64,000 nt of DNA from Nostoc linckia FACHB-104 (GTDB lineage: Bacteria > Cyanobacteriota > Cyanobacteriia > Cyanobacteriales > Nostocaceae): positions 1 through 64,000 of the forward strand of contig NZ_JACJQJ010000001.1 in the NCBI RefSeq assembly GCF_014696615.1. Reading direction: 5' to 3'. Numbering within the stretch: position 1 is the stretch's first letter; every line of letters starts with the position of its first letter. The notes under the pieces were generated by a model, which saw nothing but the letters and a program-made list of their open reading frames with translations, ran no database searches and was not told the origin of the DNA. The translations under genes and the position numbers were made by a program. This document shows positions 38,928 through 45,415 of this stretch, one piece after another.

Positions 38928-40050
38928 TTAAGCAGGAGTACTTTCTACAAGCTGGTTTTCTTGACGCAAATAGGCTTGAATGAAAGCGTCAAGGTCGCCG
39001 TTCATCACATCAGTAATGGCTGTTGTTTCTGTGTTAGTACGCAAATCCTTAACCATCTGGTAGGGGTGAAATACATAGTTACGGATTTGGTTACCCCAAG
39101 AAGCTTCCACCATATCACCACGAATTTCGGCAATTTCTTGGGCGCGTTGTTCTCGTGCAATCACTAACAACTTAGCTTTAAGACGGGTGAGTGCTTTCTC
39201 TTTATTTTGTAATTGCGATCGCTCTTCTGTACAACGCACAGCTATACCAGTAGGGATATGAACAACGCGTACTGCTGTTTCTACTTTGTTGACGTTCTGT
39301 CCACCTTTACCACCAGCACGAGATGTAGTAATTTCTAAATCTTTATCTGGAATATCTAGCTGTACAGAACTATCTATTTGTGGCATAACTTCCACCCCAG
39401 CGAAACTGGTTTGGCGTTTACCGTTGGCGTTAAATGGCGAAATCCGCACTAACCGATGTGTACCAGTTTCCGATCGCAAATAACCATAGGCGTAGCGACC
39501 GGTAATTTCTAAGGTAGCCGATTTAATACCAGCTTCATCACCTTCTGACTCTTCAGCTAATGCGACCTTGTAACCGTGGGCTTCTGCCCAACGGGTATAC
39601 ATCCGCATCAGCATAAATGCCCAGTCTTGAGCATCTGTACCACCAGCACCAGCGTTAATTGTCAACACCGCCCCTTTATCGTCGTAGGGGCCAGAAAGTA
39701 ATTGTTGTAACTCCCACTGATCGAGTTCGCTATTGAGTTTGGTAATAGTAGATTCCGCTTCTTGCAACAGCGATTCGTCAGTTTCTAACTCCAACAACTC
39801 AACCACAGCCTTGGTATCTTCCAGATTAGTTTGCCACTGATGATACTGCTCAAGGTGGGCTTTCAGGTCGTTGAGTTCTTGTAGAGTTTCTTGGGCTGTG
39901 GTTTGGTCGTCCCAAAATTCTGGCTGGGCGGAAATTTGTTCTAAATCTTGAATTTTGGCAGTCAGTGCAGGTACGTCAAAGATAGTCCTGGGTTTTACCC
40001 AGGCGGTAAGACAACGTTTCGATTTCGCGTTTGAGTTCTAAGACATCCAT
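38928..40050 (-). CDS. prfB: peptide chain release factor 2 with programmed +1 frameshift
   Basis: Full length 373 residues: 24 codons from ATG 40050 ([19 protein letters not shown]...), then an in-frame UGA in CUU-UGA-C, then the remaining frame ([22 protein letters not shown]) without stops to 38928. Release factor landmarks are present: SPF at [11 protein letters not shown], which reads UGA/UAA, and the catalytic GGQ in [15 protein letters not shown]. The C-terminal [16 protein letters not shown] block is intact. RF2 ends translation at UGA and UAA and, in most bacteria, controls its own frame shift. A single-frame annotation would miss the first 24 codons. The same direction as the AhpD-like gene. 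Confidence 0.96.
39975..39981 (-). promoter_or_regulatory. RF2 programmed +1 frameshift site CUUUGAC
   Basis: On the minus strand CAGGACTATCTTTGACGTAC is read. The UGA is at 39978-39976, and reading continues from GAC at 39977-39975. AGGAC 3 bases before the slippery CUU is the SD-like stimulator found in prfB genes. When RF2 is scarce, the ribosome slips and makes RF2. Confidence 0.95.
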
Positions 40051-40599
40051 AGTGCTTACTAAAGATAAAGCGCTCCCGATGGTGAGGAACTTGCCTTTAA
40101 TTCTATTTGCCTTTTTGATTTTAGCTGTAGTTGAGCAAGTTCTCTCTTTGTATTTGTAGAAGTTGCAAAAATCAATTGTGGGTGGAGAAGGATAGCAGCC
40201 TGCCAACTTATCTTCTTCATGCCCAAAAACTTCATTCCCTTGTGGGTGGAGTTTTTTATCAATGCTTCTAATTTGACATGTGTATATACTTACATTCTTT
40301 AGTAGTTTTTTAAATTATGTAAACTGCTAAATTTTGAGCATCTATGTGAAAACCCTTATGTTTATTACCTTACAACTGCTATTTAGCCAGAAAAATTCAG
40401 TATTTTCCGAATTGTTTAAGTTTTTATTCCGGACTTACACACATAACACAGTAGAAGTAGGTTAAGTACTGGTTGATTTAAATGAATACAATAAGTTTGT
40501 ATTTATGTAAATAAAGCGACCGAATAGAATACGAATATCTCCGTACTTGTATTTTATTCAACTTTTGTACTGCCAATAATACTACGCTAAGCTACACGG
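40051..40599. other. gene-free region upstream of prfB and of the lyase gene
   Basis: Divergent promoters of prfB and the lyase gene must lie here. It is AT-rich towards the lyase. A minus-strand ORF from 40206 is only the 5' extension of the prfB frame. No repeats of the listed families and no RNA recognised. Confidence 0.5.
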
Positions 40600-41430
40600 A
40601 TGAAAATGAGCGCTGGACATTGCTTACGAAAGGCACTTTCTAAGGGGTCCATTATTCCTTTTATTGGTATTTACGATGTGTTCTCAGCATCCATTGCTGG
40701 AAAACATTTCGACGGCATTTTTATTAGCGGTTTTGGGTTTGCTGCTAGTTACTATGGACTACCTGATATTGGGTTTATTGCTTGGTCTGATATTGTGAAC
40801 TTTGTCCAACGAGTCCGAACTATTCTGCCTACCCACCATATCATCGTTGATATTGATGACGGTTATACAGACCCTGAGGTTGCTTGTCATGTGGTGCATC
40901 TGTTGGAATCAATCGGAGCTTCTGGGGTAGTTCTCGAAGACCAACGTAGACCTCGACGGTGTGGACACTTCGATGGCAAACAGTTGATGGAATTGGAGAC
41001 ATTCATAGAAAAGTTGCAGAAGGTTCTGGCAACTAGGCAGGAATTGTTCGTTGTAGCCCGTACAGATGCTAGCGAAGTTGACGAAATTCTCACTAGAACT
41101 AAGGCTTTTGCTGCAGCTGGGGCTGATGCTGTTTTAGCTGATGGACTGACGGATCTCAATGTCTTGAAACTTCTCAAAGCAGAGCAGTCGAAGCCTCTAA
41201 TGTTTAATCAAATTGCCGGCGGCAAATCTCCACCTTGTAGCTTGGAAGATTTAGAGCGTTTGGGAGTATCGTTGGTCAACTATAGTACCCCATGTTTGTT
41301 TGCAGCCCAATCTGCTATTCATGACACGATGCAGCTGTTGAAAGAGCAGAATGGCTTATTGCTCAAAGAAAAAGTAGGTGTTCAACAATGCACACAACTC
41401 TTGAATCAAAACCTGATGAATCGTAGATGA
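40600..41430 (+). CDS. isocitrate lyase/PEP mutase superfamily enzyme
   Basis: 276 residues with a TIM-barrel ICL/PEPM fold. Metal-binding Asp residues occur in VDIDDGYTDP (Asp84, Asp86, Asp87), followed by Glu113-Asp114 in VVLEDQRRPRRCGH. Cys121 in RRCGH matches the catalytic KKCGH/KRCGH motif of C-C lyases, which argues against a phosphonate-making PEP mutase (that type has EDKxxxKxN). VARTDASEVDE is the later metal/substrate block. Family members cleave 2-methylisocitrate, dimethylmalate or oxaloacetate, the last giving oxalate. The downstream gene (127 bp, same strand) has an oxalate-CoA-ligase-like adenylation domain, suggesting an oxalate-related substrate (inference). Confidence 0.82.
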   Translation: MKMSAGHCLRKALSKGSIIPFIGIYDVFSASIAGKHFDGIFISGFGFAASYYGLPDIGFIAWSDIVNFVQRVRTILPTHHIIVDIDDGYTDPEVACHVVHLLESIGASGVVLEDQRRPRRCGHFDGKQLMELETFIEKLQKVLATRQELFVVARTDASEVDEILTRTKAFAAAGADAVLADGLTDLNVLKLLKAEQSKPLMFNQIAGGKSPPCSLEDLERLGVSLVNYSTPCLFAAQSAIHDTMQLLKEQNGLLLKEKVGVQQCTQLLNQNLMNRR

Positions 41431-41557
41431 ACCACATTTGATTTGTTGGTTCTCTGAACAGTACTTGAGTCATTTTGCTAACAGTTATGTTGCTTCAGAT
41501 GAGATTCTGAATAATTTTGTCATTCAAACTTAGTGGAAACTAGAGAACTTTATTGCA

Positions 41558-44164
41558 ATGAGTAGACTACTAATAAGCACTTCACAAAGGTTAACAACAA
41601 TTGAGGATTTGATCGCAGCTGCTGTTGAACAAAATCCGAATGGCATTGCGATCGCATCTCCTGGTCGTTTACCCATAACCTATGGTCGGTTATACTCTCA
41701 CATTCAAGACACGATTAAAACCTTGAATTCAAAAGGGTTAGGTCGGAACGATCGCATTGCAATAGTTCTGCCAAATGGCTCTGATATGGCAACGGCTTTT
41801 TTAGGGGTTGCGGCTTGTGCCACTAGCGCACCTCTCAATCCTGCCTATAGTGCTTCTGAATTTGACTTTTATTTGGGTGATTTGAATGCAAAAGCCCTGA
41901 TTGTGCAATCAGGGATAGATTCACCTGCAAAAGAAGTCGCTGTGGCGCATAATATCCCCATCATTGAATTGATTCCTCAGCAAGAGTCCGGAATTTTTCA
42001 TTTAATAGGCGATACAAAATTGCAGAGAGTAGATCGCGCTGTCACTAGTAGTGAAGATATTGCCCTCGTTCTGCATACTTCAGGAACCACTTCCCGACCC
42101 AAAATTGTGCCACTAACACAAGCTAATTTGTGTACTTCAGCAGAAAATATCAAAAAGGCACTGGATTTAAGACAAAGCGATCGCTGCTTGAATGTCATGC
42201 CACTTTTTCACATTCATGGACTGATTGCTGCAGTTCTTTCCTCCTTAGCATCTGGAGGTAATGTTGTCTGCACTTCAGGCTTTGATGCTGCCAAGTTTTT
42301 TGAGTGGATAGAACTCTTTGAACCAACCTGGTATACTGCCGTCCCTACAATGCACCAAGCAGTTTTAGGAGAAGTTGAAACTAACCACAAAATTATCAAA
42401 GAATGTCCACTGCGATTGATTCGTTCTTCCTCTTCGGCATTGCCACCACAGGTCATGGAGGGTTTAGAACGGGCGTTTAGTGTTCCCGTGATTGAAGCTT
42501 ACGGTATGACTGAAGCAGCCCACCAAATTGCCTGTAACCCTTTACCACCTCAAAAGCGCAAAGTCTGTTCAGTTGGCATTACCGCTGGTCCAGAGATTGC
42601 CATTATGGATGAAGTGGGAAATTTGCTAGCAATTGATGAGATCGGAGAGATTGTTATCCGAGGCAATAATGTGACAAAGGGTTATGAAAGCAATCCACAA
42701 GCAAATTCCAATGCCTTTACGAATAGGTGGTTTAGAACTGGGGATCAAGGCTACATAGATAGCGATGGTTATCTATTCATCACAGGTAGGCTGAAAGAAC
42801 TCATCAATCGGGGAGGTGAAAAAATTTCCCCACGTGAAATTGATGAAGTACTATTAGACCATCCAGGGGTAGCACAAGTAGTATGCTTTGCAGTTCCCCA
42901 TCCTACCCTCGGTGAGAATGTTGCAGCAGCGATTGTTTTGCATCAGAATGTCACTGTTACTGAAAGGGAAATCTATGAATTTGCAGCCAAGAGACTGGCT
43001 GATTTCAAAGTACCAACTCAGGTAGTATTTGTGGAGGAAATTCCTAAAGGTTCTACAGGGAAAGTACAACGCATAGGTTTAGCAGACAAGCTGGCAAGCA
43101 AATTGAAAGCAGCTTTTGTTGCACCTACAACACAGATAGAAAAGGTACTGACAGAAATATGGGCTGAGGTTCTTGGTGTTGAAGAGGTAGGAATTCAGGA
43201 TAACTTCTTTGCGTTAGGCGGTGACTCATTGAGAGCCACTCAAATTATGTTGCGTCTGAAAGCATCTTTCCAAGTAGATTTACCCCTAGGTACCCTCTTC
43301 CAAGCACCAACAATTGAGCAATTGGCCAAATTTTTACACTCTCCTCAAGAATGCTCATACCCTTGGTACTCACTCGTACCTATTCAACCATCTGGTTTCC
43401 GCCCTCCTCTGTTCGGGATTCATATACTTGGCTATAAACATTTAGCTAATTATTTAGGACTGGAGCAACCAATTTATGGACTACGTTATGGGTTAGCCGG
43501 AAGCACCACAGATCACAAACCCACTCTCCCTAGTCGAATTGAAGATTTAGCTGCTCACTACATAGAAGAAATGCGAACTTTCCAGCCTGAAGGTCCCTAT
43601 TTTCTCATGGGCCTTTGTTTTGGAGGAGAAGTGGCGTTCGAGATGGCTCAACAGTTAATTGCACAGAGGCAAGAAGTAGCTTTACTAGTTTTGTTTGATT
43701 CCCATCTCAGTATAAATATTAGAGAAAGAAAACTCTTACCACTCCAGCATCAAATTTCTAATCTATTAAGGGTTGGCTCCACCGAATTTATCAAGAGGGT
43801 GAAAGGTCAGATTTCCATCATGCTTCATAGAGTTAAATATCACTATCAAGAGGAAAAATACGAATATACGCCCAATAGCTATGGTCCTATAGGCGATAGG
43901 GAGTTCTTTGAAACTTATACTCCAAAATCTTATTTGGGCAAAGTGACTTTTTTTAAAGCAATGGATGGTGAAAACGAAAAATTGTTGTCTATCCGGTATA
44001 GCTATGACAATATTAAGTGCACATTGAGCAAGTTTATAATTGGAGAACTAGATTATTGTGAGATTCCTAGCGATCACTTTAATATTCTAGAGGAACCCCA
44101 TGTCCAGTTAGTTGCAGAAAAATTGAAGGATTGTCTAAATGTAATAGACAACAAGCATCCGTAA
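41558..44164 (+). CDS. single-module synthetase: adenylation, carrier and thioesterase domains
   Basis: 868 residues. The A domain (about 1-510) has ALVLHTSGTTSRPKIVPLTQ (P-loop), EAYGMTEAAHQIACNP, FRTGDQGYID, GRLKELINRGGEKISPREID and GKVQR, closest in my reading to plant and fungal oxalate-CoA ligases (AAE3/PCS60 type). A carrier domain (about 525-600) has DNFFALGGDSLRATQIM, with Ser557 as the arm attachment site. The thioesterase (about 610-868) has GLCFGGEVAFEMA with Cys687 where most such enzymes have Ser. No condensation domain, so it acts on one substrate and releases it by transfer or hydrolysis. Likely operon with the ICL/PEPM gene. Confidence 0.88.
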   Translation: MSRLLISTSQRLTTIEDLIAAAVEQNPNGIAIASPGRLPITYGRLYSHIQDTIKTLNSKGLGRNDRIAIVLPNGSDMATAFLGVAACATSAPLNPAYSASEFDFYLGDLNAKALIVQSGIDSPAKEVAVAHNIPIIELIPQQESGIFHLIGDTKLQRVDRAVTSSEDIALVLHTSGTTSRPKIVPLTQANLCTSAENIKKALDLRQSDRCLNVMPLFHIHGLIAAVLSSLASGGNVVCTSGFDAAKFFEWIELFEPTWYTAVPTMHQAVLGEVETNHKIIKECPLRLIRSSSSALPPQVMEGLERAFSVPVIEAYGMTEAAHQIACNPLPPQKRKVCSVGITAGPEIAIMDEVGNLLAIDEIGEIVIRGNNVTKGYESNPQANSNAFTNRWFRTGDQGYIDSDGYLFITGRLKELINRGGEKISPREIDEVLLDHPGVAQVVCFAVPHPTLGENVAAAIVLHQNVTVTEREIYEFAAKRLADFKVPTQVVFVEEIPKGSTGKVQRIGLADKLASKLKAAFVAPTTQIEKVLTEIWAEVLGVEEVGIQDNFFALGGDSLRATQIMLRLKASFQVDLPLGTLFQAPTIEQLAKFLHSPQECSYPWYSLVPIQPSGFRPPLFGIHILGYKHLANYLGLEQPIYGLRYGLAGSTTDHKPTLPSRIEDLAAHYIEEMRTFQPEGPYFLMGLCFGGEVAFEMAQQLIAQRQEVALLVLFDSHLSINIRERKLLPLQHQISNLLRVGSTEFIKRVKGQISIMLHRVKYHYQEEKYEYTPNSYGPIGDREFFETYTPKSYLGKVTFFKAMDGENEKLLSIRYSYDNIKCTLSKFIIGELDYCEIPSDHFNILEEPHVQLVAEKLKDCLNVIDNKHP

Positions 44165-44310
44165 GTCAATGTGATCGCGCTTTTGTTAAAGAGAGAGTAG
44201 AAAATAGGGATAGTTCTAGCTTTAAGACTAGCTTTCAAATAACTTTAACCTGCTTACTAGAACTATCCGGCAATACTAGCAAGTAAGAAGCAAAAGCCAA
44301 GCCTATTTGC

Positions 44311-45415
44311 TCACGCCAGGGTTTGATGTTGCTGTTGCAGATAAGCTTTGATAAACAAATCAATTTCGCCATTCAAAACCTCCGTTGCAGCTGTTGTTTC
44401 TACTTGGGTACGCAAATCCTTGACCCTGGTATAGGGATGCAAGATATATTCATGCATGGGCTTTTTGAATAGAGATTTGATTTTGCCAGATTGAAGATCA
44501 GAAATATTCTGAACACCTTGGGCTTGCATGAAAGCCCATAGCTTACTTTTAAAAATAGCTAAGGCTTGCTCTTGGTTTTGCAGTTGATTACGTTCTTGGT
44601 CACACAAGACAGTAATTCCTGTAGGAATATGAAAAACTTGTACCCACGTTTGTGGGCAGTTGACATTTCCACTCTGCCAACATTTAGTTATATCTAAATC
44701 CTTTTCTAGAATCTCTAACTCAAAAGATTTATCTAAAATGGGGCTAACTTCTACAATTGCTTTGCAAGTGAGTCGCTTACCATTACCATTTTGGGGAGAA
44801 ATCCTAACTATTTTTACATGAGTTCCTTGTTCTGATTTGAGGTAGCCTTATGCGTAAAGACCTGTAATTTCTGGGGTAGCGGACTTAATTCCAGCTACAT
44901 CTTTGCAAGATTCTGCGACTAGATATACTTTGTAATTGTGGCTATTTGCCCAACGATCGTACATTCTAAACAAAATCGAAGCCCAATCTTCGGCATCTAT
45001 TCCACCAACCCCGGCAGTAATAGTAAGATATGCGCTCTTTTTGTCGTAATATTCAACTAGTAACTGTTGTATTTCTAGTGTTTTAAGTTCTTGTTAAAGC
45101 TGGATCAGCTTAGTTTGCGCCTCATGCAATAATTGCTCATCGGCAGAGTATTCTAACAGTTCTAGAGCAGCTTTGATATCTCCTAGAAGTGAATGCGATC
45201 GCTGATATTTTCTCTTTTTGGCGTTGAGAGATTCAATCTCTCGAACTGTTGGATAGGCAATAAAGCTATTTTCCCAAAAATTAGACTGAGAAATTATTTT
45301 ATCTAATTCTTGAATTCTTGCAGTTATTTCTCCCAGGTTAAAGACAATCTTCTGCTTTGCTCAGAATATTCGACAACCTTTCTACTTCAAGTTTGATTTG
45401 AGAGAGTTCCAGCAT
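44311..45415 (-). pseudogene. release factor 2 paralog without GGQ or SPF, with in-frame UAA codons
   Basis: Full-length RF2 homology (25 codons, then a frame shift, then 342 codons; real prfB has 24 and 349). It begins MLELSQIKLEVERL from 45415; CUU-UAA-C stands at the frameshift place (45343-45337). After it the other frame continues for 1029 bp with no frame-breaking indel, but holds two TAA codons (45094-45096 and 44848-44850, the latter in LYA-stop-GYLKSEQGTH). SPF is changed to SPQ (RISPQNGNGKR), and the GGQ loop is replaced by CWQSGNVN. The C-terminal FHIPTGITVLCDQERNQLQ and HPYTRVKDLRTQVETT blocks remain. It cannot be a release factor, and it is translated only in pieces unless recoded. 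Confidence 0.85.

Follow-up and report, generated by a model that had tools for sequence, protein, structure and literature searches.

The window, by which we mean the whole 64,000-nucleotide stretch of DNA that was analysed, carries on its minus strand a pseudogenised paralog of the RF2 gene (44311-45415). Read directly, the gene consists of a 25-codon leader opening with ATG at 45415, a shift site, a 342-codon body in the +1 frame (45339-44314) and a final TGA stop (44313-44311). At the shift site (CTT-TAA, 45338-45343) the context is CUU-UAA-C, at a position where 49 of the 53 family members with a visible site have UGA instead, and the body is interrupted by two further in-frame TAA codons: one at body codon 82 (45094-45096), common to the window and one other genome (G007), and one at body codon 164 (44848-44850), private to the window, where the four genus relatives compared have TAC. 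The GGQ motif is absent, the former GGQ loop now reading CWQSGNVN (44659-44682), and SPQ (44791-44799) replaces SPF; all of these features lie on the minus strand. Direct reading confirmed the sequence features given in the initial annotation, which was also correct in its codon counts (25 + 342 as against 24 + 349 in prfB) and in its remark that all interruptions are TAA, the natural final stop being TGA. When the two TAA codons of the body were written as X, the body scored 138.8 bits against the Pfam domain PCRF (cut-off 24) and 55.5 bits against RF-1 (cut-off 35); because both scores exceed their cut-offs, its homology to RF2 is not due to chance.

The true prfB gene, encoding RF2 (38928-40050, minus strand), lies downstream of the paralog on the same strand and has a CUU-UGA-C shift site, SPF and GGQ. 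From the stop of the paralog to the ATG of prfB at 40050 the distance is 4,260 nt, most of it taken up by a 4,128-nt stretch (40173-44300) that parts the two genes and carries a PEP mutase-like gene and an adenylation-PCP-thioesterase gene.

Insertion and decay of the window copy

The 4,128-nt stretch is missing between the same flanks in G003 and G002 and is present in G007, and the TAA at codon 82 is found only in the window and G007, whose copies no longer adjoin prfB. G004 has neither the paralog nor the insertion, cleanly, and prfB is present there. At codons where the four genus relatives agree, the private changes of the window copy are eight nonsynonymous and no synonymous, plus TAC to TAA, as against 49.5 nonsynonymous and 41.5 synonymous changes summed over the four relatives, each compared with the rest (Fisher p 0.019, on rounded counts). 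Selection on the window copy is relaxed, and the copy is a young pseudogene. Recoding of its TAA codons, which the initial annotation had offered as an alternative to decay, is thus unsupported: the 8:0 ratio is that of relaxed selection, the TAA at codon 82 is shared only with G007, the sole relative within the genus to carry this insertion, and the likely case of recoding, found in 13 relatives (see below), uses UGA, at another codon.

Decay of the window copy would have begun at, or soon after, the 4.1-kb insertion that separated the paralog from prfB, with the TAA at codon 82, and the two further TAA codons would have been gained later, an order that we infer. The link between insertion and decay that we propose draws on a single event, shared by the window and G007. 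The copies are recombination mosaics, the first 60 codons of the window copy resembling G002 and most of its remaining codons G003, and therefore the shared TAA and the insertion do not necessarily trace a single lineage over the full length of the gene.

Distribution and anatomy of the family

In the genus of the window (8 genomes) the paralog is present in seven, and five of the seven copies, which are 54-91% identical to that of the window, have no internal stops. In the window's family, a profile search at E 3e-142 picked out 54 of 217 genomes; the matches in G014, G054 and G065 were true prfB with GGQ and were removed, leaving the paralog in 51 genomes at 52 loci (G088 has two), and a truncated remnant in G127, seen additionally, was left out of the counts. 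A second family, f33, has the paralog in 2 of 10 genomes, and the 54 loci analysed are the 52 from the window's family and these two. GGQ is absent from 53 of the 54. SPF is present in 27, and the emphasis that the initial annotation had placed on the loss of both motifs therefore holds for GGQ, lost in nearly the whole family, but not for SPF, the loss of which is no family trait. Nearly all shift sites retain CUU-UGA-C; the exceptions among the 53 are two with UAA (the window and G176) and two with UAG (G491 and G088a), the site in G492 being unseen. Internal stops before body codon 320 occur in 19 of the 54 loci, and the 35 without them include G492 (first codons uncovered) and G122 and G133 (which end a few codons earlier than the others). 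The loss of GGQ long preceded that of the reading frame, in line with the initial annotation, and relatives carry ORFs that lack GGQ yet can still be read. Automatic annotation may well list the paralog as a pseudogene, because the shift site splits the gene.

The single paralog with GGQ (L033, in G142) also has SPF and is nested among GGQ-less ones; because G142 sits inside the paralog clade, its GGQ was more likely regained by recombination than kept. At L149 in G088, a pair of GGQ-less paralogs, of which one has CUU-UAG-C, and then prfB make up a run of three RF2-like genes. Paralogs of two genera, g6 and g46 (L033, L039, L117 and others), share, at the same place within MPTAGYAYA, a seven-residue in-frame insert that resembles a repeat element. 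At L038 (G137) the frame of prfB is lost past a run of A, ahead of the C-terminal part, possibly through an assembly error, and L071 (G017:C24) and L072 (G093:C38) are GGQ-containing RF2 genes unlike the cyanobacterial ones here, possibly from contaminating contigs.

Among 340 genomes of the order, sampled evenly and searched at E 1e-131, second RF2-like matches outside the family were found only in G176 and G301 among the matches listed. In 388 genomes of the class, E 1e-143 returned seven matches, three of them known paralogs (G000, G012 and G064) and four prfB with GGQ, in a sample that lacks some known carriers and at a threshold that would miss divergent members. A scan by named genomes gave at least 80 loci; of eight loci inspected, five of them from that scan and one (L153) matched by contig only, L177 alone is without GGQ. 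This copy, from Amazonocrinis nigriterrae CENA67, looks identical by eye to that of G083.

Across 51 loci (f33 and the first G088 copy left out), prfB was found at 49, with 146-448 nt between the end of the paralog match and the prfB ATG at 48 of them and 4,262 nt in G007. This close placement ahead of prfB at 48 of 49 loci, together with the breakage of both copies that have been parted from prfB (the window and G007), might indicate that the paralog ORF is a leader only, its UGA-gated translation protecting the mRNA or coupling to prfB and its protein inert. However, prfB has its own upstream box (visible at 19 of the 20 loci given, one having dropped out; weaker in the two of g45; present in the window after the insertion) and persists in G004 without the paralog, and selection at the protein level (dN/dS 0.28-0.38) would be unexpected for an inert product, so we regard this explanation as quite improbable.

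Descent, selection and fold

The paralogs are of common descent: in a tree of 55 proteins (27 paralogs, 24 cyanobacterial prfB and 4 outgroup sequences) they form one clade (100/100), with f33 basal. Forcing the f1 paralogs to group with f1 prfB made the tree 54 log units worse (p-AU 5.7e-5), and forcing the f33 paralogs with f33 prfB made it 58 log units worse (p-AU 9.4e-4), which rejects a recent separate duplication within each family. Either the families therefore separated after the duplication, or the gene passed from one to the other; long branches call for caution here.

Relatives of the window copy are under purifying selection. Codon models gave dN/dS of 0.283 for the five intact copies of the genus and 0.376 for 15 intact g6 copies, as compared to 0.056-0.065 for prfB, and dN/dS = 1 was rejected for both paralog sets (2dlnL 144 and 180, respectively). 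Given a ratio roughly six times as high as in prfB and a patchy presence (51 of 217 and 2 of 10 genomes), the paralog is dispensable. Patchy distribution, the internal stops at 19 of 54 loci and the clear wrecks in G089, G109 and G127 might even be taken to mean that the whole family is a functionless duplicate in slow decay, but 35 of the 54 loci are without internal stops at within-genus dS of up to 0.77-0.93, the neutral expectation for the intact sets is 28-64 new stops per half gene, and dN/dS is far below 1, all of which makes such a reading barely credible. The initial annotation had proposed that the copy served, or serves, a non-termination role and is now decaying, and had suggested looking in relatives for intact GGQ-less ORFs with dN/dS well below 1; such ORFs exist and the family is kept by selection, whereas decay applies to the window copy, which does not behave in this way. 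The GGQ-less RF2 paralog family is real and selected, and it is undescribed in the open-licence literature examined: no cyanobacterial GGQ-less RF2 appeared in titles and abstract beginnings among the matches listed, and the word beginnings cyanobacter, Nostoc, paralog and duplicat do not occur in the text searched of PMC12421855.

Over 25 copies, dN/dS was 0.353 in the first domain, 0.254 in the decoding domain, 0.355 in the RF-1 part and 0.272 in the C-terminal part (0.029-0.141 by part in prfB), and constraint spread in this way suits a whole folded protein. The same values bear on the idea that the family has turned into an mRNA-binding or -stabilising factor off the ribosome, in the manner of plant PrfB3, which according to extracts of PMC5897788 lost both SPF and GGQ and stabilises petB mRNA. 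Loss of SPF in half of the family is consistent with that idea; the decoding domain, however, is the most constrained part (0.254 vs 0.353 and 0.355 in the parts flanking it, with the C-terminal part close at 0.272), and SPF is kept at 27 of 54 loci, so we think it unlikely. An RF2 fold with PCRF and RF-1 domains is indicated by Pfam for the window copy and for the protein of one relative (G006), and by an AlphaFold2 model of the latter (29 rows, pLDDT 84.9, pTM 0.76), the best match of which is E. coli RF2 (1gqe; TM 0.77 by query length, rmsd 6.4).

A second in-frame UGA

Of the 30 genomes of the genus g6 (probably Nostoc) that have the paralog, 13 share a TGA at body codon 165/166, in the contexts GGC-TGA followed by CTA (8), CTG (3), CTC (1) or ATA (1); two genomes with a single TGA elsewhere (G482 and G502) were left out of the 13. 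The same codon is a sense codon in the remaining 17 paralogs, TGG in G491 and Tyr, Leu or Cys codons elsewhere. No stop lies behind the UGA in any of the 13 carriers (in G488 up to the contig end), as against 29.6 expected if the sequence were neutral, a neighbour-joining estimate from synonymous distances. Two carriers (G460 and G496) have a second stop ahead of the UGA, and these copies may be dead. Even when only the age of the stretch surrounding the UGA is considered, 24-42 extra body stops would be expected and two were seen (Poisson 1.5e-8 to 6e-16). Behind the UGA, dN/dS is 0.365 in 12 of the 13 carriers (without G488; 2dlnL 73) and 0.351 behind the same codon in intact g6 copies; ahead of the UGA it is 0.603 in carriers (2dlnL 19.5). 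Singleton changes gave 0.53 in carriers vs 0.50 in intact copies behind the UGA, and 0.61 vs 0.45 ahead of it. In these 13 genomes, though not in the window copy, an in-frame UGA is thus conserved while the sequence behind it stays under coding constraint.

The state of this codon changed at least eight times on the prfB tree (32 rows, 12 carriers, with 15 of 29 inner branches open) and four times on the paralog tree, with the basal pair G462/G472 among the carriers. Around the UGA, synonymous variation is reduced (0.10-0.17 in carriers vs 0.32-0.42 in intact copies), so recombination may have spread cassettes, or an RNA constraint may act; the RNA behind the UGA was considered as single-sequence folds of six copies. 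Among carriers, the dS of the paralog and that of prfB are correlated (0.90).

These sequence patterns strongly suggest that the UGA is recoded in the 13 relatives. Because dN/dS is below 1 in both halves (0.603 ahead, 0.365 behind), one might instead envisage a split gene with two half-proteins, the second made by reinitiation behind the UGA and with no readthrough; we judge this distinctly improbable, as the UGA falls inside the PCRF domain and the codon is sense in the 17 other g6 paralogs (TGG in G491).

As to how the UGA would be read, selenocysteine was rejected, since in none of seven genomes, four of them UGA carriers, did a tRNA-Sec match exceed the Rfam cut-off (47 bits; best match 44.5); weaker matches were present in all seven and in 14 of 14 controls, and those in tRNA arrays are other tRNAs by ARAGORN. 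Likewise, no UCA anticodon of a UGA-cognate suppressor was found in the ten tRNA-array stretches examined. An odd tRNA occupies the Trp slot of the arrays in two carriers (G064 and G012), yet G458, which is not a carrier, has it too, and it therefore does not explain the UGA. We take near-cognate tRNA-Trp to be the likely reader. In E. coli, an overexpressed tRNA-Trp variant with a shortened anticodon stem reads UGA, as described in extracts of a 2026 paper (PMC13092985). The g6 arrays contain Trp-slot tRNAs with an anticodon that ARAGORN could not resolve (L255, 12029-12103; L256, 527-601; L258, 2277-2351), and a tRNA with the amber anticodon CUA occurs in arrays of the window's own genome (L251, contig C97, 4597-4668) and of G475 (L250, 7209-7280), in a slot that adjoins tRNA-Trp and in G471 holds tRNA-Lys CUU.

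Discussion

We consider it probable that the window contains a recently inactivated member of an old GGQ-less RF2 family located upstream of prfB, the working members of which are RF2-shaped, non-releasing and made mainly at RF2 scarcity. Such members would bind the ribosome (or an mRNA) without peptide release and, on the ribosome, would occupy the site of RF2 with no hydrolysis. Ribosome binding is suggested by the modelled fold and by homology, and SPF is gone in half of the family. UGA and UAA are the stops of RF2, RF2 shortage promotes frameshifting, and a UGA with C after it terminates weakly, according to extracts of PMC12421855. Full-length product would require the +1 shift at UGA and, in the 13 species, passage of the second in-frame UGA as well; since synthesis would need UGA recoding, most of the protein would be produced at times of RF2 shortage. 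Its amount would then track RF2 shortage, with a steeper dependence where the second UGA exists, and RF2 control would be weakened at the four of 53 sites with UAA or UAG. A more tentative extension, and one we hold to be rather doubtful, is that the non-releasing relative serves as a two-lock sensor of RF2 shortage, gated by the +1 shift at leader codon 26 and by readthrough at body codon 165/166, which may occupy the A site at UGA and alter rescue or waiting time.

With this family, bacteria would have a counterpart of a catalysis-free RF2, one that selection has maintained next to the gene it came from and that answers to the sensor of that gene. The UGA of the 13 species, if true, would be a case of naturally kept readthrough in an RF2 relative; readthrough of an early in-frame UGA was once entertained for RF2 itself and is absent from sequenced RF2 genes, according to extracts of a review (PMC5009743).

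Among known systems, RF2 itself (prfB, TIGR00020) shares with the paralogs its fold (as modelled), domain order, tandem position and CUU-UGA-C site; unlike RF2, the paralogs have lost GGQ at 53 of 54 loci, and five intact relatives score 280-345 with the NCBIfam prfB model, below its cut-off of 370, as compared to 485 for true prfB. Plant PrfB3 is likewise derived from RF2 and has lost GGQ, and SPF is lost in part of our family as well, but the family is bacterial, stands beside prfB and has kept the shift site, and only GGQ is consistently lost. PrfH (RFH) is also an accessory RF2-like factor; it has no N-terminal domain, keeps the catalytic Gln and has RtcB as a neighbour (extracts of PMC6514570), whereas the paralogs have a PCRF domain and lack GGQ. 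The autoregulatory frameshift of prfB is matched in the family by a leader of about 25 codons and by CUU_U with UGA and then C. Of 8,164 genomes with the frameshift motif, 98.6% have TGA and 1.4% TAA, with TAG undetected (extracts of PMC12421855); the shift sites of the paralogs, by comparison, have UAA in 2 of 53 and UAG in another 2 of 53.
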